Notes under the pieces: model-generated
Told to the model about the DNA's origin: nothing
What the model saw: the letters and a program-made list of their open reading frames with translations, nothing else
The model's database searches: none
Shown: one piece after another, positions 3,801 through 40,239 of the stretch
Layout: the number at the start of each line of letters is the position of its first letter
Numbering within the stretch: the stretch's first letter is position 1
Virus record (IMG/VR): IMGVR_UViG_3300037245_000565
Span: 1 to 41,607 of that record
Direction: 5' to 3' (one strand)
Origin: a virus
DNA length: 41,607 bases
Program-made: the position numbers and the translations under genes

Positions 3801-6242
3801 TAACATGTTCTGGTTAGTCACCGATGCCGATGTGTTGCATTCCCCTGCTGTGAAATCAGTCATGTTCTCACAACCCCTGAATGCCGAATAAAAACTAGTC
3901 CACCCAACACTCCCTAAGTTCTCAACAGTTGTGATAAAGAGCTTGTCACCGCCATTGTTGAAGTAAAGTTGCGGAAATGTTCCGGTGATCCGACATTCGT
4001 ATGTTCCAATCGTAGGTAATTCCTGTGCTAATCCACTCATATCACCATCACTAAAAGTGTCTGCTACAACCAATGCACCTGTATCATCATACCATTCAAT
4101 TGTTCCGTTATAACCAATTCCATCAGTAGGGATAGTTAATGTCTGTGCATTAGATGTAGTTGTCCATGTCGTGATAAATGCTTCATTTGAACCACCGTCA
4201 TTAATAGTCCAACCTTTTGTATTGATCAGGTAATCTCTCGAAGCGGTTCCAACGGCTGAGTAGCGGGAACCACCCATATCGAAGGTGAGGTTAGATGTGA
4301 CGATATCCCTCGCAAGCGCATTCAGTAGTATGTCGTATGAGTCGGTTGTAAACTTGGAATTCATAGCGAACTCGTGGATTTGTACGAGGTTTGTAAAGTC
4401 CCAAGCGGATAGATCTAAATCAATTTCTTCAACTACACTTTTGAACATCCCATAGAGATGTGTTGCCGAGCTAGTGACGAGGGTTTCTATTCCTGTGATA
4501 TTTTGCACCGTGGCTCTGTTCTCGAACATCCACTGAAGGCGATCTTGATTATCAAGATTGGGAAGGATTATAGGGTGAGATGGATTACCAACGGCTTCAA
4601 CAATAGCGAACATACCTGAGCAATTGGTTACGTTGGTAGCATCGAAGCCGCTACAATCGATAGTTCCTTGTAAGCTCAGTAGACCTGTAAATAAATTATG
4701 AAACGAGACCCATTGTGATGTGTCCCAACGAGATACATCGTGCGTTTCCAGACTCTCCATGTCTGAACTCATCTGAGCAGTTTCAATCGGGTCTTGAGTG
4801 TTCCACTGCCATTGACTCATGTCAAAAACTCTCAATACGGTACAGAAACTTGACATGAATCCGGTCTTGATGACATTCGACACATCCCAACTGGACATAT
4901 AAACCTCTTCCAGTTTAGAACACGCATATATGAGGGTGTATAGATCTGAACAACCACTTACGTCCATAGTTTCGGCGTTGATGGTAATAAGCTCTGGGCA
5001 TGATCTGAACATCCCCCTTACTGTAGTCACATTCGAGGTGTCGCAATATCCCGATTCAAATGAGACAATCCCTGACCCCCTGAATGCTTGTCCTAAGTTA
5101 GTCCATCCAACATATCCTAAGTTCTCCACCGTCTTGATGAAAGCTTGATCCGTTGCCTCGTGAAGCAGGATGCTAGGGAATGTTCCCGACACAAATAATC
5201 TATAATTACCAATATCAGAAAATAAAGTTGTTGCATCAATAGAGCTACCCAATCCGCTGTAGCTACTTTCCGATATAATTTGACCAGTATCTCTATCTTC
5301 CCATCTTGTACTGAAATCATAAGTCAATGCATCATCTAGAGGAATAGTCAAGGTCTGTGAAGGACTTGTAGTTTCCCATGTAGATATAAATTGTGGTAGA
5401 GGATCAGAATCGCTTGGGGTATATGGTACTTCACCCTCATTATATAATTTATTAAAGTCGTTTATTTGGGTTCTGTTAAGATTTAAATATTTCGAACCAT
5501 CATCACCCACATTGTTTAGAATTCTTTGTTTTGTTATTGGATAGAAATATTTAACCAATCTACCATCATCGTAATATTCGTCATATACCTTTTCGTTAAT
5601 ATAGTCGAATTGAGAGTTGTTATATATAGAAACAATCTCCGCATCTGAAAGCACTCTATCGAATACAATAAAATCTGCAATACTTCCATCTAAGGCTCGT
5701 GTGTCATTCGTATTATTATTAGGATATCCAATCTTAAACAATCCATCAGTAGTATGTGCTGTATATGTTAGATCGGAAATAGTAGATTTTTCACCGTTGA
5801 CGTATAGTTCAATAATACCTACATTGTTGACACATACTATGTGCATCCATTGGTTTAAATTATCGTGATAATTGCTGAAGGTTTTTCCTGTATATTCATT
5901 CCCATCATATCGTTGGAACCCTATTTTATTCGAGTCATTGGATATATTTAGTGCATGTCTATCTGAACTACTAGTACCAGTATTCCAAATAACCATAGTT
6001 GATTCTTCAGTACCAGTTTGTTTAACCCAACAAGACACAGAGTATATACCTAATTGTTCGAATATACCATTGAAATCATCTAATGGAATCTCAACATTAT
6101 CAGTTGGATCATTAAATGATCGGGCTATCCCAAAAGGACTACCCACTTCAGTAGTTCCATTATAAGTATACTCAGGATTTTCTACTCCTAAGTCTTCAGC
6201 GAACACCGCTCCAGTGTTTATATATCTTCTAATTTCAGCCAT
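870..6242 (-). CDS. Giant modular leucine-rich-repeat adhesin (LamG + 4 LRR modules)
   Basis: A 1790-residue virion protein, presumably a host-recognition fibre or adhesin. Residues 35-210 form a LamG-like domain (SVSCWVKQTG, LYVNGE, GYPNNN). Four tandem modules follow at about 285-688, 689-1059, 1060-1434 and 1435-1790. Each module has a linker of the type FITTWETTS, an Ig/PKD-like segment (GTIDWGDGT; Y-x-R-x-SG-x-F), a cap (VENLG-x-x-GW-T ... AFR), DUF285/BspA-type leucine-rich repeats (xMFxxC, WDTSNVTxM) and a closing cap (SRYS ... RDYLINTKGWTI). DUF285 repeats are known from bacterial surface proteins such as BspA. Start supported by AAGGAAA about 6 nt upstream. Base composition varies between modules, which suggests recombination. 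Binding function is inferred. Confidence 0.75.
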   Translation of the reverse strand: MAEIRRYINTGAVFAEDLGVENPEYTYNGTTEVGSPFGIARSFNDPTDNVEIPLDDFNGIFEQLGIYSVSCWVKQTGTEESTMVIWNTGTSSSDRHALNISNDSNKIGFQRYDGNEYTGKTFSNYHDNLNQWMHIVCVNNVGIIELYVNGEKSTISDLTYTAHTTDGLFKIGYPNNNTNDTRALDGSIADFIVFDRVLSDAEIVSIYNNSQFDYINEKVYDEYYDDGRLVKYFYPITKQRILNNVGDDGSKYLNLNRTQINDFNKLYNEGEVPYTPSDSDPLPQFISTWETTSPSQTLTIPLDDALTYDFSTRWEDRDTGQIISESSYSGLGSSIDATTLFSDIGNYRLFVSGTFPSILLHEATDQAFIKTVENLGYVGWTNLGQAFRGSGIVSFESGYCDTSNVTTVRGMFRSCPELITINAETMDVSGCSDLYTLIYACSKLEEVYMSSWDVSNVIKTGFMSSFCTVLRVFDMSQWQWNTQDPIETAQMSSDMESLETHDVSRWDTSQWVSFHNLFTGLLSLQGTIDCSGFDATNVTNCSGMFAIVEAVGNPSHPIILPNLDNQDRLQWMFENRATVQNITGIETLVTSSATHLYGMFKSVVEEIDLDLSAWDFTNLVQIHEFAMNSKFTTDSYDILLNALARDIVTSNLTFDMGGSRYSAVGTASRDYLINTKGWTINDGGSNEAFITTWTTTSNAQTLTIPTDGIGYNGTIEWYDDTGALVVADTFSDGDMSGLAQELPTIGTYECRITGTFPQLYFNNGGDKLFITTVENLGSVGWTSFYSAFRGCENMTDFTAGECNTSASVTNQNMLLDCYGLVRCDVTGIDLDMCLSIRSMFNDLESCPEIVGLNTLDVSGVQSFQKCFQYANGLTSIDVSTWDTSSGTEFTHMFWQTYNNIEPLMIGHFDLSGATSVSTFLSETGATPIPTLPSFTGIEDFAYLFSERFTLDNIGGIEGIDTSSATRMEGMFNYIIQQDINLNLSNWNFESVTNIDGFLLETQLDTESYDILLNTMASQDVNNGLVFDGGFSRYSPASEASRDYLINTKGWTINDDGSNQDFITTWETTSPAETIIFPTERDPVLTLNYEYNGTIDWGDGTVLPFTSYDDPNFTHEYALAGTYTVRVSGIFERMDNYQSTSADNLRSVENMGYTGFTNLNSAFRGGIVSFKVGDSDTSKVTDMSSMFRTTPSLVSADLRGMDTSNVTSLFTLCYDSAIQTLDMRGLTTSSVTDFNWCCSTCPNLIEIPTGFNDLDFSSVTTIKNIFQESGITTATLDINIQHIGIDISGWFEKCSNLTSVDISSQHFPEGADIEWIFGACFSLSEIIGIESFDNVNFGYMRGMFEECFKLTKIDFSKWIFGPASYTLGFKEFLQYVELETEYYDILLKTIASQDINVGQLLDCGFSRYSETGKIDRDYLTDVKGWTIIDGGSKDSFITTWTTTSTPQTITVPTTGTGYNGTIEWFDDTGTLVVSDTFSDGDMSGLAQELPTIGTYECRISGTFPRILCDGAGDQLFITTVENLGAVGWTSFYSAFRHCENMTSVKSGYCDTGVVTSFRNAFAHCYNLIDADLGTLGVEGAESLRSMFYNDALLVRLECSDWDTSNVWEFPTFVLGCIALIEVDVSSWDVSNGLSISWMFQRVETLAQLDITNWDTSKVTDMQSVFDQCINLEIIGLASLSVSSATTMVGMFASNPKLKTIPVTSWDISNVTTMSEIFDTDTDPLAPVTINTTGEGGYDEMIWYFASEHQAGRAQDNVPFHGGLSKYSIASKPAWDYLNNIAGWIITDGGMV

Positions 6243-11652: not shown

Positions 11653-13770
11653 TTATTTCCAAGAAGGTGGTATATCACCGTAATTAGTGATGCTGGTACA
11701 ATCTTCGAATGTGTAATCATAATCCGTTATGGATGCATTATTCCACCATTGAGCAGGATCTAGTGTTATTGCTAATTGTGTACATTGGGAAAATGCCCAA
11801 TCAACGTTCCACATAGTGGTTGTTAGAACCCATCCACTTAGATCGAGATATGTTAATGCAAAACAATCTGTAAACATATATCTCATATTGTTGACATTAA
11901 TCATATTCCAACCAGATACATCAACCGTTGTTATTAATTCACAACCATGGAACATATCCAACATTAAATCACATGAACCTGTATCAAAACTAGACACATC
12001 AATTGAAGTGGCAACAGTACAGTCCCAGAATGTTGAGTCCATTTCTTCAACTAATGATGTAGACATCATTGATAAGTCGATGGTTGTTATGGATGTACAA
12101 TCAGAGAACATATATGAGATATTGAATAAGTAAGGAGTATTTCCATTACCATCGAAGGTTATCAGAGAGGTACATCCAGAAAATGCGTCAGCTAAATCTA
12201 ACCAACCGAGATTACCAAGAGATTCTACACTTGTTAGGTAAGATCTAAATGTTCCTGACATAAATCCTTTCCATGTACTAAATGATTCACAAAGTCCAGA
12301 AATTGTAATTTGATAGATTCCTGCTCCAGCATAAGTATGAGATTTATTAGCATCATTCCATGCAGTTACAGTATCAATTGGACTTCCATCACCCCAATCA
12401 ACAGTAAAGTTATATTCATAAGGATCTACATAGTATCCATATTGGTCTTCTTCATGAATAGGGAGATATATTGTCTGTGATGAAGGTAAAGTAAATGTAG
12501 CTTGGAAATCTTCAGCATATGATGGTATTGGTTGATAATTATTATCATATGTTATATTAAATTTACCTTTACTCATGTCATCCATTTCGATATAATATGC
12601 ATGTGGTGTAATACCAATTACCGTTGTTAATGTTGTTGGTACATTATTCGTTATTATATCAACACGATCAGTACCGGACTCAAATGTGAATGTGTCAACA
12701 ATTCCACTAATAGCTGAGAAATAACATGTGATCGGGTCACCTTCAACTAATTCAAATATTGACGAGTTTGTAGTATCCAATTCGATATCTGGGTTTATAA
12801 CTGGATATCCAGACAGATTTGACTCTAATGAATGGTATGTATCTAATGATAAGTCGTCTCTAAGATTAAAGGAATATTCAAGTAATACTTCAAATGCTGT
12901 ACGCTTATCAAACTCTTCTGGTGATAATTGATTTCCAAATACATCAACCGTTGACCAATTATAGACACTACCAGTCACACTATATAACCTTGTTGGTATG
13001 TATACACCGGAAAGTGCGCCCGTTCCGAATTGACCACCAATGAACGGTGATCGGAGTGATGCTGTTTCAATTGAATCATCAACTGTTGGTTTATCAACCC
13101 ATGATGGTATTGAAGCCGTTTCCAAGTATATAGAATTTTTAACACCGTATAAGAATTCAGATGAACGTTCATTCATCGGGAAGAATTCAAGTAGTTCACC
13201 ACCGGAATCATACCATCTAACATTTGCGATCATATTATTGAAATAATTACCATCATCAGTACCCAGATAAAATGATGATCCAGATATACTGAATAGATTC
13301 AAGATTGATGTATCGCTATCAAGTATTTCCCATACTTCACCATTATCAGTACTATACTCGATATACACACTATCAATATCACCTACGATATCACCCGTAT
13401 ACACCGCATGATTGTCACCGGATAAGCTTATAGCCTTGTCATATTCAAACCCTGTCGCTGTAATGACTTCAATTGTACCACTTAATATGTAATCATACAT
13501 TATGGTTGTGTCAAAATTAATAATACCATCTAATCTGTATGATGGTGACATTGGATCGGTTAGGTTGTTTCGTTGAAAAACTATGTTATTTTCAACGGTA
13601 TGGAAATCATCAACAGTGTTTTTTAATATCGATTCACCAACATCATTGAACCATACGTTATTTGCAGTATCATCCATATATGGTATATTACCCGTTGGTT
13701 GATATACGTCATCACCCCCAGATAATATAACTGAACTGATATTCGGTGCATTATAAATGTCATTTAGCAT
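11653..13770 (-). CDS. Baseplate-region protein with PKD-like domain and LRR C-terminus
   Basis: A 705-residue protein in two parts. Residues 1-430 are beta-rich and unassigned, presumably the virion anchor. Residues 448-492 form a PKD/Ig-like segment (VDWGDGS, then HTYAGAGIYQITISG). Residues 512-700 are DUF285/BspA-type leucine-rich repeats (AFSGCTSL, YMFSDCTSI, MFHGCELI, YMFTDCFAL). The C-terminal half has the same architecture as the modules of the adhesin at 870-6242, with SVESLGNLGW matching the module cap VENLG-x-x-GW. The gene follows the gp7-type wedge gene, where T4 carries gp8 to gp12, so it may be a baseplate-anchored receptor-binding protein. No strong Shine-Dalgarno is visible. 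The anchor role is inferred. Confidence 0.6.
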   Translation of the reverse strand: MLNDIYNAPNISSVILSGGDDVYQPTGNIPYMDDTANNVWFNDVGESILKNTVDDFHTVENNIVFQRNNLTDPMSPSYRLDGIINFDTTIMYDYILSGTIEVITATGFEYDKAISLSGDNHAVYTGDIVGDIDSVYIEYSTDNGEVWEILDSDTSILNLFSISGSSFYLGTDDGNYFNNMIANVRWYDSGGELLEFFPMNERSSEFLYGVKNSIYLETASIPSWVDKPTVDDSIETASLRSPFIGGQFGTGALSGVYIPTRLYSVTGSVYNWSTVDVFGNQLSPEEFDKRTAFEVLLEYSFNLRDDLSLDTYHSLESNLSGYPVINPDIELDTTNSSIFELVEGDPITCYFSAISGIVDTFTFESGTDRVDIITNNVPTTLTTVIGITPHAYYIEMDDMSKGKFNITYDNNYQPIPSYAEDFQATFTLPSSQTIYLPIHEEDQYGYYVDPYEYNFTVDWGDGSPIDTVTAWNDANKSHTYAGAGIYQITISGLCESFSTWKGFMSGTFRSYLTSVESLGNLGWLDLADAFSGCTSLITFDGNGNTPYLFNISYMFSDCTSITTIDLSMMSTSLVEEMDSTFWDCTVATSIDVSSFDTGSCDLMLDMFHGCELITTVDVSGWNMINVNNMRYMFTDCFALTYLDLSGWVLTTTMWNVDWAFSQCTQLAITLDPAQWWNNASITDYDYTFEDCTSITNYGDIPPSWK

Positions 13771-26962: not shown

Positions 26963-27247
26963 CTATTTAAATTTCTTTATTGCTGTTGTTACCTTTTTAT
27001 CAAACTTCTCAACTTCAGAAATGATTGTGTCAAACACCGCACCTTCCGCTTGTTTGTCACCAAAGTCTTCACTAATAAACATATCATGTATCCGTTCTGC
27101 TATAGTATGAGTGTATGCCATTGCATAATCTCTTGCACCATATCTATCGGTAACTGAATTTTTAGGTTTTACTTTTGCATGACCCTGAAAATTATATGAT
27201 TTTTCAGCTTCAGTAACTTTTTCATATCGTTCTTGTAAAGTTTCCAT
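26963..27247 (-). CDS. Small helical protein, unassigned
   Basis: A 94-residue, charged, predominantly helical protein (METLQERYEKVTEAEKSYNF at the start; a Lys-rich end KKVTTAIKKFK). No known motif was recognised. Its ATG overlaps the stop of the 229-residue gene by one base (TAATG), so it is translationally coupled and probably belongs to the same assembly step between tube and chaperone. It could be an assembly factor or minor virion protein. Confidence 0.6.
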   Translation of the reverse strand: METLQERYEKVTEAEKSYNFQGHAKVKPKNSVTDRYGARDYAMAYTHTIAERIHDMFISEDFGDKQAEGAVFDTIISEVEKFDKKVTTAIKKFK

Positions 27248-27936
27248 TATTCCGAATCCCCTTTCTTCTTCAAGGACTTAGCACGTTTTCTAGCCGCTTG
27301 AGCTTGTTTAGCTGGGTTCTTCTTCTTCTGAGCTTTCTTAGCACCTTTAGCACGTTTTTTCTTTTCTTCGGGTGTCATCTTAACTTCTTTAGGTTTACCA
27401 TCAACGATCTGAACACGGAAGCCTTCTTTAGTTGAAATCCACTTGATAATTTTCTTACCATTACGGACAACTTTTTTCTTGACTAATGCTTCATCAATAT
27501 GTGATTCATTCTGACCACCAGAATCAACTGAAACGTATCCAGCGATATCAAACGTAGCTAGTGGATCTGTTAGAGTGAGTTTGTAGTCGGATGCATCTGG
27601 AACGGTGAATGAGAATTGAGCACCAAGTTCATTACGAACAACGTCCATCTCATCATATGGAAGTGAAATAATAACAGCGTTTTCCTGTTGGTCAATAACT
27701 TCAAATTCATTTGCTTCGGTATGACCAAGCATTTGTGATATTCTCGTTAGAAATTTATCCTGATGTTGAATCGGAACCTTAAATGCCATTAGGTTGAATG
27801 CTGGACGATCAGGTATTGATGTACCAGTCAACACATCTTTACTTTCAGATGCTGTAACCAACTTCTCATTTATCTCATCAATCTGTTCATTGATTCCATT
27901 TTTAACGTTTTCAAGTTTTTTAAGTATTTCTGACAT
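27247..27936 (-). CDS. Tag-bearing protein with lysine-rich C-terminus, unassigned
   Basis: A 229-residue protein. Residues 1-32 (MSEILKKLENVKNGINEQID onward) form a coiled-coil-like tag shared with the acidic protein at 39650-40186. The middle has a compact alpha/beta region (FNLMAFKVPIQHQDKF, AVIISLPYDEMDVVRNELGA). The end has VVRNGKKIIKWISTKEGFRV followed by a very basic tail (KKRAKGAKKAQKKKNPAKQA). I recall the 'VRNGKK.KKW.S...GF' plus Lys/Arg-rich tail arrangement from phage structural gene clusters without a firm function. A basic tail may bind DNA or an acidic partner. It follows the tail tube gene by 9 bp. Confidence 0.6.
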   Translation of the reverse strand: MSEILKKLENVKNGINEQIDEINEKLVTASESKDVLTGTSIPDRPAFNLMAFKVPIQHQDKFLTRISQMLGHTEANEFEVIDQQENAVIISLPYDEMDVVRNELGAQFSFTVPDASDYKLTLTDPLATFDIAGYVSVDSGGQNESHIDEALVKKKVVRNGKKIIKWISTKEGFRVQIVDGKPKEVKMTPEEKKKRAKGAKKAQKKKNPAKQAQAARKRAKSLKKKGDSE

Positions 27937-31830: not shown

Positions 31831-33378
31831 ATGATTGAGATTATTTATGAAGGTGATGAGTACTGTAGATTAAAGTCTGAAACCCTAGAGGGTATCAGTC
31901 CGATAATCAAAGCTTTCTCTGTAGATGATCCAAGTGTATTTTTCGCTGAACAGCATGGGTATAAACCAGCCAACACCAAATTGAGTGTTATTTCAGCTGT
32001 CGGTCTTTTTCGTCTGGGTATTTTTCCTCGTATTTATCAATTATGTAAAGACCTGTACGGTAAGGATAACATACGGGTTGATCCTGAACTTGTCAAGCAC
32101 TTATTACCATTAAAACGGTTCGATATAAATTATACAAACCCTATCATCATTCCCGCATTTAAATTGAGTGAGGAAATGGAGGAACGGGATTACCAGATCC
32201 ATTCAGTAAGGCAGATGTTGAAATATGGACGGGGGTTGTTATCAATACCGACTCGTGGTGGTAAATCAATTATCGCTGGACTTTTCATTTGGAATATGAT
32301 ATGTCAGATGAATACTCAACATACACTGATTCTGGTTCCAAGCGTTCAGTTGGTTCATCAGTTCCATAAAGACCTGATCAAATTTGGGTACAATGAAAAT
32401 CAAGTTTCGAAGTTCACAGCAAAGGGTGGAACGAGTGATCACAAAACAATCATCATCAGTAATAAACAATATCTATTGAAACATCGTGATGAATTACCTG
32501 AGATTGGTTGTGTTATAGCCGATGAGGTTCATGAAATAAAAGAGGGTAGTAAGACATTCAGTTATATTGAAAGTCTGAAAACACCATTCAAGTTTGGGTG
32601 CAGTGGTTCAATACCTAAAATAACGGAAGATAAACCAGTGAAGACGCATCAGCGGTGGTGTCTCGAATCATTATTCGGTTGTGTTGTCAGTAAGAAGACG
32701 ATCAAAGAACTTCAGGATGAGGGTTATATCGCAAATCTGAAGATAAAGCATATCCACATTATTGACCGTGATATTGAGAAATTCCCAAACAGATATAAAT
32801 TCGCTATCGATTCAAAATTTCATGAAGAGGGTGACAAATTCAATACAGCATATAATGATGAACTTGAGTATTTCAAGAATAATGCTATACGGTTATATTC
32901 CAAACCAATTAAGATGCTTCCAAAACTTAAAGGAAACACGTTGGTGTTGTTTGACCGGATTGAGTTTGGTAAATCGGTATTTGATTATCTGAATAAATAT
33001 ATTGATCATATTGATTCACCGAAGAATGCATTCTATATTGATGGACATGTCGATGTTGATATCCGTGAGGATATTCGGGTATCAAGTGAGGACTGTGATG
33101 ATAATATCATTATGGCACAAACTAGGACGTTCAGTACTGGTTTAACCATCAATAACCTACATAATGTCGTATTTATGTTTAACTCAAAGGCCGAAGCTAC
33201 TATATTACAGTCTATTGGACGATCACTTGGTATACATGAGAGTAAGGTGTTTGCGTACCTATATGATATCAGTTTCAATACGAAGTACGCTACAAAGCAG
33301 TATATGGAGCGTTTATTGACGTATGAAGACGAATACCATAAAACTAAACCAGATAAAGAGATCGTACTATATATTTAA
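31831..33378 (+). CDS. uvsW: UvsW-like helicase (SF2 RNA/DNA recombination helicase)
   Basis: A 515-residue superfamily 2 helicase, near T4 UvsW (503). In T4 it unwinds R-loops, migrates branched DNA, and switches replication from origin-dependent to recombination-dependent. Motifs in order: YQIHSVRQML (121-130, Q-like), PTRGGKS (140-146, Walker A), ADEVHE (230-235, DEAH-type box), GCSGS (256-260, motif III), TRTFSTGLTI (431-440, motif V), and QSIGRSLG (460-467, motif VI). The N-terminal 110 residues correspond to the UvsW-specific domain. It starts 3 bp after uvsY with no clear Shine-Dalgarno, so translation is probably coupled. It ends overlapping the convergent 148-residue gene by 4 bp. 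Confidence 0.9.
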   Translation: MIEIIYEGDEYCRLKSETLEGISPIIKAFSVDDPSVFFAEQHGYKPANTKLSVISAVGLFRLGIFPRIYQLCKDLYGKDNIRVDPELVKHLLPLKRFDINYTNPIIIPAFKLSEEMEERDYQIHSVRQMLKYGRGLLSIPTRGGKSIIAGLFIWNMICQMNTQHTLILVPSVQLVHQFHKDLIKFGYNENQVSKFTAKGGTSDHKTIIISNKQYLLKHRDELPEIGCVIADEVHEIKEGSKTFSYIESLKTPFKFGCSGSIPKITEDKPVKTHQRWCLESLFGCVVSKKTIKELQDEGYIANLKIKHIHIIDRDIEKFPNRYKFAIDSKFHEEGDKFNTAYNDELEYFKNNAIRLYSKPIKMLPKLKGNTLVLFDRIEFGKSVFDYLNKYIDHIDSPKNAFYIDGHVDVDIREDIRVSSEDCDDNIIMAQTRTFSTGLTINNLHNVVFMFNSKAEATILQSIGRSLGIHESKVFAYLYDISFNTKYATKQYMERLLTYEDEYHKTKPDKEIVLYI

Positions 33379-33821
33379 TTATCAATTACACGTGTACCGA
33401 AACCTTTACCACCATCAACCTCATATTCACCAATATCGAGTGTTTTCTTAAGTATGATGTATTTCCGATTGAATGTGTCACCCCATCCATATATACCACC
33501 ACTGACTTTAATCCATTCATCTTCAATCAGGATATCCAGTGTATCACCACCATCAGCGATAATAAAAACAACACCACCACGTTTAACCTTAAATTCCAGT
33601 GGTTCGTGATATCCGTCCAACCATTCATCTCTTGATGATATTAAAACATTATGGAATATTTCTGGTACATTACCAATAGTTGTTGCAGTATCATATTCAT
33701 ATGGTTGGGTATTTTGTTTTAAACGTATAGTCGCACCTTTATAATACACACGTGCTTCATCATCCGATGCAAATGATATAATCGAACAAAACAGTAACAT
33801 CATTATAATTATTTTTTTCAT
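33375..33821 (-). CDS. Secreted (Sec signal) late protein, unassigned
   Basis: A 148-residue protein. The first 19 residues are a clear Sec signal peptide: KK, a hydrophobic core (IIIMMLLFCSIISF), and a likely cleavage site at SFA-SD. The Cys is not in a proper lipobox (Phe precedes it), so it is probably not a lipoprotein. The mature part, about 130 residues, is beta-rich (GGVVFIIADGGDTLDILIED, KYIILKKTLDIGEYEVDGGKG). No lysis, receptor or immunity family was recognised. It has its own late promoter (33886-33893) and a leader hairpin, and its 3' end overlaps the convergent uvsW gene. It may act in the periplasm or envelope late in infection. Confidence 0.6.
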   Translation of the reverse strand: MKKIIIMMLLFCSIISFASDDEARVYYKGATIRLKQNTQPYEYDTATTIGNVPEIFHNVLISSRDEWLDGYHEPLEFKVKRGGVVFIIADGGDTLDILIEDEWIKVSGGIYGWGDTFNRKYIILKKTLDIGEYEVDGGKGFGTRVIDN

Positions 33822-33844
33822 ATTTTACCTCTTTTTTAATTTGA

Positions 33845-33866
33845 ATAACCTGTATAACATGGTTAT
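33845..33866 (-). promoter_or_regulatory. Leader stem-loop before the secreted-protein gene
   Basis: ATAACC (33866-33861 side) and GGTTAT form a 6-bp stem with a 10-nt loop, between the late promoter and the ATG at 33821. Confidence 0.3.
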
Positions 33867-33885
33867 GAAGATAATGCAAGTGTTT

Positions 33886-33893
33886 TATTTATA
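33886..33893 (-). promoter_or_regulatory. T4-type late promoter TATAAATA
   Basis: Exact TATAAATA on the reverse strand, overlapping the stop of the sulfotransferase gene (33889) and 65 bp upstream of the secreted-protein ATG at 33821. Confidence 0.7.
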
Positions 33894-34518
33894 TTTTATC
33901 AAGTAATGGTTTATTCGCTCTACTGTTTTGTATGTATTTTTGTTTTCGTATTTGTATTCGATCCCATACATTACTTGCAATGTTTTTATGTGGGAACGGT
34001 ATTGATGGTATATCAACATTCAGGAATTGGCATAATTTATCCCATCCGTCACCTTCACATATATTCATTACCAGTAGATCATCTGGTCTATTTTTAAAAT
34101 ATTCAATATTTAAACTGTATTTCAAGTGTTTTTGTGATATATTATCATATTTTATTTTTTCTGGATTATATAAGTAGTTGATGTATTCTTTGTGTCCACC
34201 ACCTATTATATAATTTTTTCGTCTCCAGTGATCGACTAAACTATTAAACCAATCGTTATCGTTTCGTTCTAAAAGTATGAACTTACTGTTTGGGAATAGA
34301 TCATCGATTATATCAACATCTATATTATGCCAAGGTGCATCCTGAAATGCGTCATAGTGGTCAAATTCTCTTATAATGTTATCAACACCACCACTCCTGA
34401 AATCTTTAACGGTAGCTCTTTCCCAACCAGCCACTCTATACCCCAATAAGTCAAGAGCAACACCTAATGATGATGTACCAGTTTTACATGTCCCAATTTC
34501 GAATATTTTATTTATCAT
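33889..34518 (-). CDS. Sulfotransferase (short, P-loop type)
   Basis: A 209-residue protein predicted to transfer sulfate from PAPS to an acceptor such as a sugar. FEIGTCKTGTSSLGVALDLL (residues 6-25) is the 5'-phosphosulfate-binding loop, equivalent to the 'GxxKTGTTSL' of family 4 sulfotransferases. KFILLERNDNDWFNSLVDHW (79-98) matches the 3'-phosphate-binding region 'F(I/L)LTxRDPxxWxxS', although the usual Arg-Asp becomes Arg-Asn here. The length is close to that of small phage and bacterial members. The start overlaps the upstream gene by 4 bp (ATGA). It is the last gene of the glycan cassette. The acceptor cannot be told from sequence. Confidence 0.78.
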   Translation of the reverse strand: MINKIFEIGTCKTGTSSLGVALDLLGYRVAGWERATVKDFRSGGVDNIIREFDHYDAFQDAPWHNIDVDIIDDLFPNSKFILLERNDNDWFNSLVDHWRRKNYIIGGGHKEYINYLYNPEKIKYDNISQKHLKYSLNIEYFKNRPDDLLVMNICEGDGWDKLCQFLNVDIPSIPFPHKNIASNVWDRIQIRKQKYIQNSRANKPLLDKI

Positions 34519-35432
34519 ACTTTAAAAGCCTTCTCATTCATTATTTGATGTTTCTTAAATTCATTAATACTTGAATTATTATATTCATCTAGTGATGTTA
34601 AGTCATAATCAACGTGTGATATCTTAGTTCGTATTACTGGGAAATTATCATAAGTGTTAGACATTCGAATCATCATTTTTAGATATGTCGATATCCATGA
34701 TACCGATGATATATGAATATCACCCTCATTCTTTGGATTATTTACTAAGAACTCATTGGGTTTTAATAATTGATCTAACACATCTTGATGTGGGTGGAAT
34801 AATAACACACATGGATCAATACGTGTTTTACCATCAGTTTTTACATATAAATTAGGTACAAGTGTCACCATATCATTTTTCAAGAAATTGAACATTCCTT
34901 CAGTTACCAATGCTGGTATATTTAATATAGACTGATCATATCTAGTTCTAATAACCATATCATAATCAGTTCCAGTATCTTTTACATAAGTTGAGAAAAT
35001 CTTTAATGACTCTAACATACTATATGTCTGTGATATTGCTGGATGGTTCGTGTATTTTATTCTGTTTGAATAGTCTTCTATATTATCACAGTTTAATGTT
35101 TTTGGTTTATATGTGGTTTCTATGTAATTGTCTAAATATGATTTATCCTCGATTACGCCAACGGTTGGTTTATATTGCTCCATTATATTCATGCAATCTA
35201 AATCTGTCGCAGATAATATTAAATTATCCTTATTTGATAATACATCGGAACATAGTTTATCCCAGAAAATCCTCAACGAAATACTATCCCACATATGACA
35301 AAAAACATCTATTTCTATACCATTATCATTAGCCCAATGCCTTATATATTGTAAATTGAGTAAACCCACATCCCAATATCTAGGTTCCGTACTAAAACAA
35401 ATGGCTATTCGTTTGGTTTTATTAACCACCAT
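34515..35432 (-). CDS. Putative glycosyltransferase-like protein
   Basis: A 305-residue protein. The N-terminal RIAICFSTEPRYWDVGLLNL (8-27) and DVFCHMW (42-48), the central ISQTYSMLESLKIF (133-146) and DYDMVIRTRYDQSI (156-169) match a group of uncharacterised glycosyltransferase-like proteins in viruses and bacteria that begin 'KIAICxSGQPR' and carry 'DxVIRxRxD'. The conserved Arg-x-Arg-x-Asp region is likely nucleotide-sugar/metal binding by analogy with GT-A enzymes; this is inferred. The Shine-Dalgarno is GAGGAGG, and the start overlaps the methyltransferase end by 28 bp. Situated between a methyltransferase and a sulfotransferase, which supports a role in glycan assembly. Confidence 0.6.
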   Translation of the reverse strand: MVVNKTKRIAICFSTEPRYWDVGLLNLQYIRHWANDNGIEIDVFCHMWDSISLRIFWDKLCSDVLSNKDNLILSATDLDCMNIMEQYKPTVGVIEDKSYLDNYIETTYKPKTLNCDNIEDYSNRIKYTNHPAISQTYSMLESLKIFSTYVKDTGTDYDMVIRTRYDQSILNIPALVTEGMFNFLKNDMVTLVPNLYVKTDGKTRIDPCVLLFHPHQDVLDQLLKPNEFLVNNPKNEGDIHISSVSWISTYLKMMIRMSNTYDNFPVIRTKISHVDYDLTSLDEYNNSSINEFKKHQIMNEKAFKV

Positions 35433-35914
35433 GAATTAAACTCCTCCTCGTTTTGTATTACATTGAGGTGTCTATGAAGATCACAACATACGGTAAAATC
35501 ATTAACACTGTCGTATGTTTTTTTCCAATGTTCACGGTCATAATCGTGACCGGAGAAAACACCTCCAACCTTTAATTTGGGAAACCACTCATACAACGTA
35601 CTTCCTCCGTCCTGTCCAGTGTGTGCATAACCATCTATGTAAATAAAATCAAAATAATTATTGGGGAATAATATCAAACATTCATTAAATGTTGCTCTTA
35701 AAATATTGACATGTCCTAATGTCTTGACACAGTTGTGGTATTCCTGTATGTCGTGGTGGTCATCCCATTTATCGATACCCCAAAACTCCGAAAACTTACC
35801 TGATTCAGATAAGAATTTACTGAATTTACCCGTAGCGACACCTAACTCGATTCCGACTGATTTTTCATGTAATAGTTCAGTTAAACCTAACCTACTTTCT
35901 AGTAATTTTGTCAT
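35405..35914 (-). CDS. Class I SAM-dependent methyltransferase
   Basis: A 169-residue protein with a Rossmann-type methyltransferase core. Motif I is GIELGVATGKFSKFL (21-35), the acidic residue ending strand 2 is in FWGIDKWD (44-51), and strand 4/5 motifs are FDFIYIDGYAHTGQDGG (88-104) and LKVGGVFSGHDYD (114-126). This layout resembles Methyltransf_24/TylF-like enzymes, which often O-methylate sugars and may use a metal. It overlaps both neighbours (4 bp ATGA with the DUF6473 gene, 28 bp downstream), so it belongs to the cassette operon. A sugar or protein-glycan acceptor is inferred from context. Confidence 0.8.
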   Translation of the reverse strand: MTKLLESRLGLTELLHEKSVGIELGVATGKFSKFLSESGKFSEFWGIDKWDDHHDIQEYHNCVKTLGHVNILRATFNECLILFPNNYFDFIYIDGYAHTGQDGGSTLYEWFPKLKVGGVFSGHDYDREHWKKTYDSVNDFTVCCDLHRHLNVIQNEEEFNSWWLIKPNE

Positions 35915-36717
35915 ATGATACTCTTTATTATTGGTTTAAGGATGTTAAAAATAACACCATGTTGCTCTGGTGTTGGGTAATATGTGTTTTTGATTATACC
36001 ATCCAGTGTCATCTTGGGTAAAATCTGTGGATAACCCAATGTACCACAATATTCAGCATAGTGTTCAGTCATACCTTTCAATGTGTTTATGGTTGGTTCG
36101 TTGATAAATTGAGGAAAACCCCTAAATATACCAACCCGTGTCTTATACTCTAATGGATCACATGGTTCACGATGACCTATATATAACAAAACTACTGGTA
36201 CTTTAATTTTTTCGATGAGGTGCTTATATCCCATTACATAAGTATGTAATGTCTCCTCGATTAATTGTTTGATCTCAGCTTCATTATAGTTATTTAAACA
36301 GAACTCCCAAAACTCACCCGCATTTTGTGTCTCGCCATTATCCAAATTGGTACCATTGAACCTACCTTCGGTTTGGAACTTAGAATTTGATTCACTCCTA
36401 GCTGACATTACCTGCAATATACATAATTTAGATTTATTTATGATATCGATATTTTCTGTAAAGACTTCATTTGATGCACTCTTACCACCAGAACTTATAT
36501 TAAATACTTCTACCCCCATGTTTTTTTGTATTAATATGGGAAATGGTTCTTCACAGAAACGTCCAAATGTACCAGCACTTCCAACACATGATATATATTG
36601 GTCTGATTCGGGTTTAGGTCCACGGAAAAAACATCCACGGAAATTGAATATATCATAATCTATGAAATCGTCATAGTATTGATACCCAGTGTTTGATTTA
36701 CCTGTTACCTTTTCCAT
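35911..36717 (-). CDS. DUF6473 protein
   Basis: A 268-residue protein. Residues 12-75 carry the DUF6473 pattern: YQYYDDFIDYDIFNFRGCFF near the start, FRGPKPESDQYISCVGSAGTFGRFCEEPFP-type sequence in the middle, then FNISSGGKSASNEVF. From what I recall of this family, members occur next to sulfotransferases in marine proteobacteria and phage-like contexts, and the SAGTFGR/NISSGGK segments resemble SGNH-hydrolase blocks; catalysis is unproven. Its ATG immediately follows the upstream sulfotransferase stop, and its TGA overlaps the methyltransferase ATG, so expression is coupled. It may process or recognise the sulfated glycan. Confidence 0.65.
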   Translation of the reverse strand: MEKVTGKSNTGYQYYDDFIDYDIFNFRGCFFRGPKPESDQYISCVGSAGTFGRFCEEPFPILIQKNMGVEVFNISSGGKSASNEVFTENIDIINKSKLCILQVMSARSESNSKFQTEGRFNGTNLDNGETQNAGEFWEFCLNNYNEAEIKQLIEETLHTYVMGYKHLIEKIKVPVVLLYIGHREPCDPLEYKTRVGIFRGFPQFINEPTINTLKGMTEHYAEYCGTLGYPQILPKMTLDGIIKNTYYPTPEQHGVIFNILKPIIKSII

Positions 36718-37551
36718 TTACACTCCGTATTTGTATCCAAACAATGTTATATCTTGATTGAACGTTTCATTAACGAATTTTATCGACTTACCGTTATAAT
36801 ATTCGGTATAATTTTTGACCGTTTCATCAGATACATTAAGTTTAACTTCACTACTCAGATCAATATCAAGTATAGTTGAAATTCGGTCAATTTCTATGTT
36901 GTAATTCTCAAATCTAGCGATATAATTAGTAACCAGTTCACCAGTTTTTGATAATATGTAATTACATTGATTCACATCAGGGTTTAAAAAAGACCTATAT
37001 AAACCAATATGTTCATGTGCATTACATATAAAATCATTGAAATTGTCTTTGGTTGTTCGTTTCGCAACTTCTTCATCCCAGTCAAGGTCTTCGTTCCATA
37101 TACGTGCAACCTCTTCGATTACGATCTTATTCTTGAATATTGAAAAGACATAATCCCACGGGTTTCGTATGAATGCGAATCTGAAATAACCATCATATAA
37201 ACCTTTGTGGTTTAATAGAGACGTTGAATGACGTTTGTTTTCATGGAGAACGATATGTGGACCAAGACCTTCATGGAACATATTCAACCATCTAATTTTA
37301 TCTGGGTTTTTTCTGTAGAATAGGTTTATATCATCCTGTGGCATCGAATTGTAACAATCAACAACACATGAATCAATTTCAGATATATTTTCAACTTCTG
37401 GATAATGTTGTTCAAGAAGGTCAACAAGTTCTTTCAATTTTTCATACTTGTTATAATTGTTGCTATACCTAGATAATAGGTATGTAAATGATGTACCACC
37501 AGTCTTCGGTATATGAAAATAAATAAATTTATGTGAATCTGAAATAATCAT
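36718..37551 (-). CDS. Sulfotransferase (family 2-like)
   Basis: A 277-residue protein predicted to move sulfate from PAPS to a carbohydrate. FIYFHIPKTGGTSF (9-22) is the 5'-phosphosulfate-binding loop of the carbohydrate sulfotransferase group, and FRFAFIRNPWDYVFSIF (123-139) contains the 3'-phosphate-binding Arg and the downstream Ser. HxNKRHSTSL before it is typical as well. The start at 37551 gives an ATGA overlap with the glycosyltransferase stop and a GGTGGA ribosome-binding site; an ATG nine bases upstream is less well placed. The two sulfotransferases in the cassette belong to different subfamilies, so they probably act on different positions or acceptors. Confidence 0.82.
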   Translation of the reverse strand: MIISDSHKFIYFHIPKTGGTSFTYLLSRYSNNYNKYEKLKELVDLLEQHYPEVENISEIDSCVVDCYNSMPQDDINLFYRKNPDKIRWLNMFHEGLGPHIVLHENKRHSTSLLNHKGLYDGYFRFAFIRNPWDYVFSIFKNKIVIEEVARIWNEDLDWDEEVAKRTTKDNFNDFICNAHEHIGLYRSFLNPDVNQCNYILSKTGELVTNYIARFENYNIEIDRISTILDIDLSSEVKLNVSDETVKNYTEYYNGKSIKFVNETFNQDITLFGYKYGV

Positions 37552-38768
37552 TTGAAGCATTCCACCATTTTTTTTATATTTTTATCATTGCTGAAATTAT
37601 CATTGACCATCTGTACACACTCATCAGACATGTCCATATATTCTAATATATCCAAATCGTATATTTTATCCATCCTATCGAAAATCATGTCAACATCACC
37701 CTCATTGGTGGTATACCCAGTCACACCATCGATTATAATCTCAGGTATACCGGAATAGTTTGTACCAATACATGGTGTACCCATTGACATACTTTCAATG
37801 AAGAATGTTGGTAATCCCTCTTTATCACCTGTATCAGTTGTAGTTGATGCTAAAATTGATAAACTCGCGTATTGTATGTATGACATAATTATTTTATTTT
37901 CAACATGTCCAACAAAATGTACGAAGTCACCCAAATCTAGATCACTAACTAACTGTTTAAGTTCGGCATCTAATGTACCACAACCAGCGATAATATAATG
38001 AACTTCTGGGTATTTATCATGTAATTTTTTGAATGCGGTGATCGAATGTTTATAACCCTTCATCTCAATTAATCTACCAGCACTGAAGATGTATTCAAAT
38101 AGTGGTATATCATTTCGTTTCATATTGGGTTTGATATCGGAGTAGTTGACCCGTTTTATGATCACTTTATCACCAGAGACACCGAAATTATCAATTATAT
38201 ATTTTTTATTGTATTCGGAAATAGTGAAAATCCTTTTAGCTAAAGCTGATTTCAATTTCTTATAACCCTTCATACAGAATAAATCATAGGCATGTGTGTT
38301 GAAAAAGAATGGGATACTCGTATTCCAATATATGAACATACAAATATCAGCACCAAGTTGACCAAACGGTGAGTATAACTTGGTCACACCATCGGATATT
38401 ACCTTCTCACAAATTGAACAGAATGGATCTCGTGAATTTACTAATGCCATGAATTCAGTATCTTGTCGATCCTTATCGGATAGGTCGTCCAAATCACGCA
38501 TATATTTGTTAGTAGATAGGGGTATCTGGTGTTTATCGATTTCACCCCAGTTGAATAACCCTTCATGCTGTAGATATGTGATATTGTCACCGATTATTTC
38601 CAACGCTTCAGTATAAAGATCCATTTCTTCATCGGTTGGTTTACTCATTGAGTATATTTTTACATCTATACCCGAATTGATAAGCTCTACAATCTCATTC
38701 ACTACGAACGTATTAGTACGTTCTGGGAATTTATACACAAATACACCTAAAACTATTTTATCATTCAT
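37548..38768 (-). CDS. Group 1 (GT4) glycosyltransferase
   Basis: A 406-residue GT-B enzyme of the GT4 family that adds a sugar from a nucleotide-sugar donor with retention of configuration. The N-terminal VFVYKFPERTNTFVVNEIVE is typical of the WcaL/colanic-acid-type subgroup ('FP..TETFV..EI'). The C-terminal Rossmann half starts at FSAGRLIEMKGYKHSI, includes YIIAGCGTLDAELK and ends with the EX7E motif EGLPTFFIE (317-325) followed by MGTPCIGTNYSGIPEII. The start at 38768 was chosen because GTGAG lies 5 nt upstream; a GTG six bases earlier is possible. It is the first gene of the cassette and is preceded by a hairpin and a -10-like TATAAT. Acceptor unknown. Confidence 0.85.
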   Translation of the reverse strand: MNDKIVLGVFVYKFPERTNTFVVNEIVELINSGIDVKIYSMSKPTDEEMDLYTEALEIIGDNITYLQHEGLFNWGEIDKHQIPLSTNKYMRDLDDLSDKDRQDTEFMALVNSRDPFCSICEKVISDGVTKLYSPFGQLGADICMFIYWNTSIPFFFNTHAYDLFCMKGYKKLKSALAKRIFTISEYNKKYIIDNFGVSGDKVIIKRVNYSDIKPNMKRNDIPLFEYIFSAGRLIEMKGYKHSITAFKKLHDKYPEVHYIIAGCGTLDAELKQLVSDLDLGDFVHFVGHVENKIIMSYIQYASLSILASTTTDTGDKEGLPTFFIESMSMGTPCIGTNYSGIPEIIIDGVTGYTTNEGDVDMIFDRMDKIYDLDILEYMDMSDECVQMVNDNFSNDKNIKKMVECFK

Positions 38769-38806
38769 AAGCACTCACATTAACTGTTAATCTATATTAT
38801 ACGTGA

Positions 38807-38829
38807 AACACTTGAAAAAATAAAGTGTT
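38807..38829 (-). terminator. Stem-loop between the small LRR-like gene and the glycan cassette
   Basis: AACACTT (38829-38823) pairs with AAGTGTT (38813-38807), 7 bp with a 9-nt T-rich loop, starting at the stop codon of the 261-residue gene. A TATAAT (about 38801-38796 on the reverse strand) follows; no good -35 was found. Confidence 0.4.
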
Positions 38830-39613
38830 AATACCCTGCACATAGGTGATGTGTTACTATCGTCCAACTTCTGTCAAGTAATGCACCCATAGCAATACAC
38901 GCTTCGGGACTATCAATGGTTGGCATATTGTCGTAACATTCAAAATGACCACCAATTATTGTTTCATTAACAGCCCACTCAGCCACATTGATTAATGAGT
39001 TTTGGACTTGTGCTTTTGTTAGACCCGTATCGTTCAATGACCAATAGACCGCAGTTGCTGAAGATGAAATTGTACCAGTGATGTCGGTTCCATCCAGATT
39101 AACTATATCAACATTGAGTAGTTCACCAATATTACCATCGACATTAACACAACCTGATAGATTCAATGTATCACTTACATTATCAAGAGTACCAACATCA
39201 CCGTATATGAATGGCGTGTTGGTGATTATGATTGATTCGTTGATATCACTCAATTCATAAATGTCACCACTTATACTAGTGCTCTGTAATTCTAAATTAG
39301 ATATATTCTGTGGTATATCAGTGGTTAGACCTTCATATATACCACCAGTGGTTAATGATGATATATCCGTATTAGTGAAATCAGTCATTTCGACATATGA
39401 TATACCAGCAGGTAATCCAACCTTATTGATACTAGACACACCCGATAGAGTTGATCCATCGGTGAATGTCCATTCCAAACTTGAAGTGTCACCACCAATT
39501 ACATTAAAAAGTAGATCACCTGTGTCGTGTCTAATAGGAAATATGTATTTAACGGATGGTGTATATGAAACTTCAAACCATTGCGAAATATATGATTGGA
39601 TATCATTGTTCAT
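38828..39613 (-). CDS. Small leucine-rich-repeat-like surface protein
   Basis: A 261-residue protein. After an N-terminal beta segment (FEVSYTPSVKYIFPIRHD, LEWTFTDGSTLSGVSSI) it contains irregular short repeats with spaced Leu/Ile/Asn (ISNLELQSTSISGDI, VSDTLNLSGCVNVDGNIGEL, VDIVNLDGTDITG), a pattern of leucine-rich or beta-helix repeats. The C-terminal part (TKAQVQNSLINVAEWAVNE, GALLDRSWTIV) resembles the closing cap seen in LRR phage proteins and in the adhesin at 870-6242. It probably forms a surface or fibre component. It lies directly before the glycan cassette, so it could be a carrier of that modification; this is speculation. No strong Shine-Dalgarno was seen. Confidence 0.55.
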   Translation of the reverse strand: MNNDIQSYISQWFEVSYTPSVKYIFPIRHDTGDLLFNVIGGDTSSLEWTFTDGSTLSGVSSINKVGLPAGISYVEMTDFTNTDISSLTTGGIYEGLTTDIPQNISNLELQSTSISGDIYELSDINESIIITNTPFIYGDVGTLDNVSDTLNLSGCVNVDGNIGELLNVDIVNLDGTDITGTISSSATAVYWSLNDTGLTKAQVQNSLINVAEWAVNETIIGGHFECYDNMPTIDSPEACIAMGALLDRSWTIVTHHLCAGY

Positions 39614-39649
39614 AATATATCAGTACAGTGTTATAGATTGTGGTTGAAT

Positions 39650-40186
39650 TTACTCTTCTTCAGTAGTCCACTCTTTTTCAATCTCATCAAAGAATTTCTT
39701 CTTTTCATCACCCTTAAGTTGGGATGGGGATGTTACACCAAATTTCTTAAGTTTAGCATCGAAAAATTTCTTATATGCTTCTTTTGAACCTTCAGTTACA
39801 ACACCAGCTTCGATAAGGGATTCCCAAGGTTGTTCGAATTCAACGCTTTCATCTTTCTTTTCATCGTCTTCATCATCTTCGGAATCTTCATCATCTTTCT
39901 TTTCATCATCTGACTCATCTTTCTTTTCATCATCTGACTCATCTTCATCTTCATCATCAGTTTCAGTTTTTTTAGATTCGTCTTTCTTTTCATCATCTGA
40001 GTCGTCATCCTTTTTATCGGAATCATCGGTCTTTTCGTCTTCAGCTTCATCGACATCTTTATCGTCTAACTTTTCTTCAGCTTCATCGCTTTTTTTAGAA
40101 GCTTCATCGATTTTCACATTAACTTCTTCGATCTGTTCATCGATACCATCTTTAAGCTCTTGTAGTTTTTTTAATAGTTCTGACAT
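39650..40186 (-). CDS. Highly acidic tag-bearing protein, unassigned (scaffold-like)
   Basis: A 178-residue protein. Residues 1-32 (MSELLKKLQELKDGIDEQIE onward) match the N-terminus of the 229-residue protein at 27247-27936. Residues 35-115 are a low-complexity Asp/Glu/Lys/Ser tract, disordered by composition, with DNA repeats of the type (GATGAA/AAG/GAT). The C-terminal 60 residues form a compact helical domain with FFDAKLKKFGVTSPSQL and KKKFFDEIEKEW, a motif I associate with phage structural-cluster proteins of unknown role. The Shine-Dalgarno AAGGAGA and the late promoter at 40231-40238 are present. It may be a scaffold, an internal protein or an assembly factor. Confidence 0.65.
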   Translation of the reverse strand: MSELLKKLQELKDGIDEQIEEVNVKIDEASKKSDEAEEKLDDKDVDEAEDEKTDDSDKKDDDSDDEKKDESKKTETDDEDEDESDDEKKDESDDEKKDDEDSEDDEDDEKKDESVEFEQPWESLIEAGVVTEGSKEAYKKFFDAKLKKFGVTSPSQLKGDEKKKFFDEIEKEWTTEEE

Positions 40187-40205: not shown

Positions 40206-40239
40206 GTATAAATATAATTGAATTCAACTATATTTATAC
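40206..40239. promoter_or_regulatory. Palindromic face-to-face late promoters
   Basis: A 34-bp palindrome with one mismatched pair, centred on GAATTC at 40220-40225. Each arm carries a perfect late promoter: TATAAATA on the forward strand (40207-40214) for the gene at 40256, and on the reverse strand (40238-40231) for the gene at 40186. The two start sites fall near the centre, so the two promoters must share the same DNA. Confidence 0.7.

Follow-up and report, generated by a model that had tools for sequence, protein, structure and literature searches.

The window analysed here is the complete 41,607-base virus record IMGVR_UViG_3300037245_000565, probably a fragment of a larger genome, and its subject is a minus-strand operon that is a candidate for making a sulfated, methylated glycan. 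Six open reading frames (ORFs) run head to tail from 38774 to 33889, in the order GT4, Sulfotransfer_2, DUF6473, Methyltransf_24, glycosyltransferase (GT)-like protein and Sulfotransfer_4 (Table 1). As described in the original prediction, which was made from the sequence without database searches, the genes overlap or abut at every junction (-13, 0, -4, -28 and -4 bp). None of the six proteins has a hydrophobic (membrane) segment by hydropathy. The window phage is a T4-related myovirus, as indicated by a T4-type sheath, a baseplate wedge protein, UvsY and UvsW (phrog_23 3e-59, phrog_219 1.2e-33, phrog_231 4.9e-8 and phrog_16 5.8e-55, respectively), together with the late TATAAATA motif. Codon usage of the cassette correlates with that of the backbone at 0.97, and on either side of the cassette the sequence is collinear with that of a sister contig, L002, so that a chimeric assembly is unlikely and was rejected.

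Table 1. The operon, its neighbours and the exchanged block in the window, with the best family match (E-value) where one was obtained
Feature	Position	Strand	Remarks
GT4-type glycosyltransferase	37548..38774	-	408 aa from GTG 38774, or 406 aa from ATG 38768
Sulfotransfer_2 sulfotransferase, 280 aa	36718..37560	-	PF03567 2.1e-13
DUF6473 protein, 268 aa	35911..36717	-	PF20078 3.5e-20; predicted SGNH/GDSL fold
Small class I S-adenosylmethionine (SAM)-dependent methyltransferase, 169 aa	35405..35914	-	PF13578 Methyltransf_24 8.6e-9
Putative glycosyltransferase-like protein, 305 aa	34515..35432	-	phrog_13607 1.2e-10
Sulfotransfer_4 sulfotransferase, 209 aa	33889..34518	-	PF17784 1.7e-24, full model
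Exchanged block: whole operon with 261-aa and 148-aa genes	33359..39666		alignment break with L002
261-aa protein, family unknown, just upstream of operon, in block	38828..39613	-	absent from L002
148-aa protein, signal-peptide-like N-terminus MKKIIIMMLLFCSIISFA, in block	33375..33821	-	hydrophobic N-terminus
uvsW helicase, downstream border of block	31831..33378	+	phrog_16 5.8e-55; 86% identical in L002
Conserved acidic protein, upstream border of block	39650..40186	-	phrog_28651 1.1e-5; L002 ortholog
TATAAATA nearest upstream of operon, before acidic protein	40231..40238	-	same place in L002

Two different sulfotransferases had been predicted, and both family assignments hold far beyond chance. 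The two proteins exceed the curated Pfam cut-offs, the Sulfotransfer_2 match extending over residues 3-277, and the Sulfotransfer_2 protein also matches phrog_3347, annotated as 'Galactose-3-O-sulfotransferase' (1.5e-12). Its motifs for 3'-phosphoadenosine 5'-phosphosulfate (PAPS) are PKTGGTS at 18-24 (5'-phosphosulfate loop) and RNPWDYVFS at 132-140 (3'-phosphate-binding), and those of the Sulfotransfer_4 protein are CKTGTSS at 11-17 and RNDNDWFNS at 85-93, in the same order. Relatives of the latter with solved structures are annotated as sulfotransferases (5tiz, 7.9e-9). By profile and motif, both are members of PAPS-dependent sulfotransferase families, and sulfate transfer is their predicted activity. 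ATP sulfurylase (PF01747) is found in none of 12 records, namely the window and 11 other sulfotransferase-bearing viral records, which is consistent with the proposed supply of PAPS by the host; the accompanying claim that PAPS-making enzymes are absent stands for ATP sulfurylase in the window and is limited by the probable status of the window as a genome fragment.

The GT4 assignment was also upheld (Glycos_transf_1, 2.9e-32; E-x7-E motif EGLPTFFIE at 317-325). The closest named models of this protein are the exopolysaccharide enzymes WcaL and EpsE, with scores far below their cut-offs. The 169-aa methyltransferase carries a SAM-binding motif, ELGVATG, at 23-29. Its earlier description as TylF-like holds only at the family level; in a Pfam scan to an E-value of 1 it matches Methyltransf_24 and generic methyltransferase models, with no match to the TylF family proper. 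Distant matches of this protein occur in cyanophage ACG-2014f, near tail fibre genes. The second glycosyltransferase-like gene exists as predicted and is preceded by a Shine-Dalgarno-like AGGAGG, and R164-x-D166 is invariant across the family of its product. The product has no Pfam match and belongs to a phrog family of unknown function, and its putative glycosyltransferase role is taken from context. Its AlphaFold model is poor (predicted local distance difference test, pLDDT, 46), and a fold search based on that model carries no weight.

The DUF6473 assignment was confirmed as well. The AlphaFold model of this protein is fair (pLDDT 75.5), and SGNH/GDSL enzymes, including carbohydrate acetylesterases and PatB, fill nearly all of the 50 best rows in VIA-align (Z 9.0-11.1); Foldseek alone gave no match below 0.001 with the same model, the best being 3.3e-3. 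An SGNH-hydrolase fold is thus predicted. In a sequence-motif alignment, from which the correspondence of catalytic residues is taken rather than from superposition, G46-S-A48-G-T50-F-G52 replaces GDSxTxG and N-T-Y-Y-P replaces DxxHP, and the catalytic Ser, Asp and His are apparently replaced. Since neither the GDS nor the DxxH motif is conserved across the family alignment, an SGNH protein that is inactive or acts differently appears to be the better reading. The apparent loss of the catalytic residues led us to drop an active acetylesterase or acetyltransferase as the leading idea. The family is rare, being present in 5 of 385 genomes of one class and 1 of 274 of another. No further viral member was found, even by a scan of viral contigs with a two-sequence alignment, and PF20078 matched none of 47 viral records in a search in which five bacterial genomes matched and the control genomes also remained without a match. 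The DUF6473 genes of Rhodobacterales adjoin genes whose translations read as electron-transfer flavoprotein and 3-hydroxybutyryl-CoA dehydrogenase; they are uninformative on glycans and were set aside as a clue. A full-text search of the open-access literature gave no paper on DUF6473.

The whole operon lies in a block that is exchanged between related phages. L002 was found by a scan with UvsW, and a second scan for close kin of the window phage again returned only this contig. The two are collinear, with DNA identities of 82% up to 33359 and 81% from 39666 on, and the C-terminal part of the acidic protein at the upstream border is 93% identical. In L002, the 6.3-kb block of the window is replaced by an unrelated 3.2-kb segment with three ORFs (275, 318 and 431 aa). 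These are partly interrelated, and two paralogues at L002 10928-13209 share an N-terminus of about 70 residues; the slot proteins have no clear family, although one weakly touches a propeller-type model. We call them repeat proteins, and an adhesin role would be a guess. Because L002 has unrelated genes between two collinear flanks, the block is an exchangeable module. The location given in the original prediction, between adhesin-like and tail genes, was too simple: downstream of the operon lie the 148-aa gene, uvsW and uvsY on the opposite strand, and then the tail sheath gene, and upstream lie the genes of the 261-aa and acidic proteins. The 261-aa protein has no Pfam or PHROG match and no relative among reference phages. 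No clear relative of the 148-aa protein appears in family or reference searches, and this protein is possibly a late-made envelope protein. As a separate observation, the acidic protein resembles a 229-aa protein of the tail region (27247-27936) in the first 26-34 residues, with 61% identity over 26, as if the two had a common N-terminal tag.

The timing of expression is suggested by the late-promoter-like motif TATAAATA, which occurs in 18 copies in the window against 8.1 expected. Of the 15 copies on the minus strand, eight fall in the 100 bp just upstream of a gene on that strand, and such positions make up 7.7% of the window (binomial 4.8e-6). The motif precedes many virion gene groups, at 40231, 30745, 28549, 25146, 11582, 9071, 799 and other positions, with matching places in L002, and the 148-aa gene has a copy of its own at 33886-33893. 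A TATAAT hexamer before the GT4 gene (38801-38796) is uninformative. From the pattern of the promoter-like motif and the tight packing of the operon, late expression by read-through is likely.

Parts of the gene set recur elsewhere. Scans of viral contigs with the single DUF6473, GT-like or Sulfotransfer_2 protein gave no relatives, and such scans need near-exact peptides; one scan of IMG/VR with a two-sequence alignment of Sulfotransfer_2 gave 60 loci with relatives, many in tandem and some near-duplicates. Among 106 neighbours of viral sulfotransferase genes, there are 11 more Sulfotransfer_2 and 6 Methyltransf_24 genes together with many GT families. Terminase_6N is present in 21 of 46 sulfotransferase-bearing viral records and a T4-type portal in 4, which shows that some phages with a T4-type portal encode sulfotransferases. 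Reference phages gave no match for the DUF6473, Sulfotransfer_4 or GT-like protein, and their sole match for the Sulfotransfer_2 protein is in the huge phage LR756500. The viral contig L036 (UViG 3300031774_003754) encodes, at 2358-4208, a 616-aa in-frame fusion of GT4 and Sulfotransfer_4 domains, which is 32.5% identical to the GT4 protein of the window over the full length of the latter and 31% identical to the window Sulfotransfer_4 protein, besides a tandem pair of Sulfotransfer_2 genes and several genes for GTs. Its large terminase and PhoH support a tailed phage only, short of a T4-like assignment. The closest bacterial DUF6473 domain is in an in-frame Sulfotransfer_3-DUF6473 fusion of a Burkholderiales metagenome-assembled genome (L030, 7143-8861), adjoining a Sulfotransfer_2 gene and a GT2-GT4 protein; it has YPQF-type and NTYYP..H signatures in common with the window protein that are missing in other aligned DUF6473 members. 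An exact copy of the six-gene set was not found among the viral and bacterial sequences scanned, and the proposed search for it elsewhere recovered its parts, in other phages and in a bacterial glycan cluster. Two further viral loci, L041 and L048, hold six or seven Sulfotransfer_2 relatives inside about 20 kb, and in L067 (4184-11996) methyltransferases, a GT47-type gene and a Sulfotransfer_2 gene lie directly upstream of a T4-type terminase.

The reading of the operon as one for a sulfated, methylated glycan finds good support in the genes present, in their intact motifs, in the fusions of relatives and in gene neighbourhoods that recur, and such a product is probable. In the mechanism that we propose, six soluble enzymes would be co-expressed at a late stage of infection. 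Host-derived sugars would be put on an acceptor by the GT4 enzyme, probably along with the second GT-like protein; the two sulfotransferases would add sulfate from host PAPS, and the methyltransferase would cap a sugar hydroxyl using SAM. The DUF6473 protein may be a partner that has the SGNH fold but does not hydrolyse, and it perhaps binds the glycan. The product would be a short glycan with negative charge that bears methyl and sulfate groups, for which the most likely acceptor would be a virion surface protein, for example the 261-aa protein or a fibre, and it may alter adsorption or protect the particle. The chemistry of such a virion sulfation pathway would be analogous to the sulfation of eukaryotic glycosaminoglycans.

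Given that membrane segments are absent from all six proteins, and that the annotated genes of the window show none for a carrier lipid, export or a polymerase, cytosolic chemistry on an acceptor present there would be the simplest scheme. Virion proteins would fit as such an acceptor best, and host lipid-linked glycans nearly as well. A virion surface protein seems somewhat more likely than the host envelope, as this choice gains from the late-promoter-like pattern, from the slot that otherwise holds repeat proteins and from the absence of membrane segments. The full statement, that a late-made operon for a sulfated, methylated glycan acts on a virion surface protein, is plausible and is held with some reserve. 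A more specific version is put forward only tentatively, in which a late pathway placing sulfated and methylated glycans on the phage's own virion proteins is swappable with repeat (perhaps adhesin) proteins and includes a catalytically dead SGNH subunit for glycan binding or scaffolding. Several points weigh against the full statement. No TATAAATA copy directly precedes the GT4 gene, so the case for late expression depends on read-through from 40231; the fold of the putative second glycosyltransferase is unproven; the nearness of the GT4 protein to WcaL and EpsE would be just as compatible with action at the host surface; the 148-aa neighbour, with its signal-peptide-like start, is a further pointer to the envelope; and the window spans only 41.6 kb of the genome.

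The exopolysaccharide-type GT4 and the secreted-type protein in the same exchanged block thus also count for remodelling of the host surface, which we regard as possible but doubtful. In this case, sugar, sulfate and methyl groups would be added in the cytosol to lipid-linked precursors of lipopolysaccharide (LPS), O-antigen or capsule, and the altered cell or its debris would stop binding competing phages. The polymorphic GT clusters of jumbo cyanophages have been read in this way (PMC7824862), the LR756500 sulfotransferase lies in a cluster read from sequences, rather than from profiles, as genes for 3-deoxy-D-manno-octulosonic acid (KDO) synthesis, GTs and methyltransferases, and the DUF6473-sulfotransferase fusion is within a bacterial glycan cluster. 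However, no initiating transferase, flippase, polymerase or sugar-nucleotide enzyme is seen among the annotated genes of this partial contig, and in the sister phage repeat proteins occupy the slot. It can also be argued that remodelling late in a lytic cycle leaves scant time for benefit.

Two GT-type proteins, the fusion of GT4 with a sulfotransferase and the abundance of GT genes around the sulfotransferases of other phages point to glycans rather than to a sulfated, methylated metabolite. Modification of a small molecule is unlikely on these grounds, although the solved relatives of Sulfotransfer_4 include oxamniquine-resistance sulfotransferases and SgdX2, and a cyanophage O-methyltransferase cluster has been read as serving glycan decoration or a secondary metabolite (PMC7824862). 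The presence of the block in one of two sister contigs only would also be expected of recombination-acquired genes carried without selection. Such non-functional cargo is quite improbable, since all six overlapping genes are intact, their motifs are preserved and their codon usage is like that of the phage; genes of these kinds are also found together in many other phages. Least probable of all is hypermodification of DNA, in which the enzymes would decorate modified bases of the phage genome: one paper (PMC10829341) cites Iyer et al. (2013) for phage nucleotide modification based on GTs and sulfotransferases, whereas no base hydroxylase or hydroxymethylase is among the annotated genes of the window, outside which most of the genome lies, and the genes occupy a variable slot in which the sister phage lacks the block.

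The original prediction had regarded sulfotransferases as uncommon in T4-like phages and such a cassette as uncharacterised. This was too strong in view of the 60 further viral loci with Sulfotransfer_2 relatives, and phage glycan clusters (PMC7824862, PMC9602691), virion glycosylation (cited in PMC12619734) and phage sulfotransferases (PMC10580990) are already known. Jumbo and T4-like cyanophages, which are large marine phages, carry polymorphic clusters for capsular or LPS modification, with GTs and sometimes O-methyltransferases (PMC7824862, PMC9602691), and the window operon is partly similar to them in its GT genes and in its polymorphism between relatives. It differs in having two sulfotransferase families and no sugar-nucleotide genes seen in the partial contig, and in its slot between uvsW and the acidic protein, where the sister phage has repeat proteins; sulfotransferases go unmentioned in the jumbo-phage review (PMC7824862). 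OM43 phages and Synechococcus phage S-SRM01 have been reported to carry sulfotransferases, whose role in phages was unclear as of 2023 (PMC10580990). Those reports concern single Sulfotransfer_3 genes, in contrast to the set of GT, sulfotransferase and methyltransferase genes in the window. In mycobacteriophages, phage-encoded glycosylation takes place on capsid and tail-tube proteins (Freeman et al., 2023, as cited in PMC12619734). It provides a model of how the proposed virion glycan could work. We know of no sulfation or DUF6473 protein in mycobacteriophage virion glycosylation.

Among the loci compared here, that of L036 is similar to the window in combining GT4 and Sulfotransfer_4 (fused), Sulfotransfer_2 and GT-like genes in a tailed phage, but no DUF6473 or methyltransferase gene was found there, GT genes are more numerous, and PhoH and terminase genes are nearby. 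In L030, DUF6473, Sulfotransfer_2 and GT4/GT2 domains occur together as in the window, but on a bacterial contig, with DUF6473 fused to Sulfotransfer_3 and with a far larger GT protein. Open-access literature searches on sulfotransferases with phage glycosylation or capsids gave no report of sulfated phage virions. Sulfotransferases turn up again and again in gene lists of marine phages, and the operon is a concrete place to test their role. Two sulfotransferases, GT-type proteins and a methyltransferase that are swapped as a unit pose a defined substrate-to-product question, for which the window contig and L002 form a natural presence/absence pair. If the acceptor is on the virion, the chemistry of the phage particle would gain a new layer in the form of sulfated glycans, and if it is on the host, the operon would represent a new form of envelope remodelling.

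Neither portal nor terminase was found in the 41.6-kb fragment. The sheath is distant from those of reference phages, with matches below 60% identity and none reaching 80% protein coverage. Very large fibre-like proteins are encoded at 870-6242 and 11653-13770; both have DUF285/BspA-type repeats, and the first also has Laminin_G_3.

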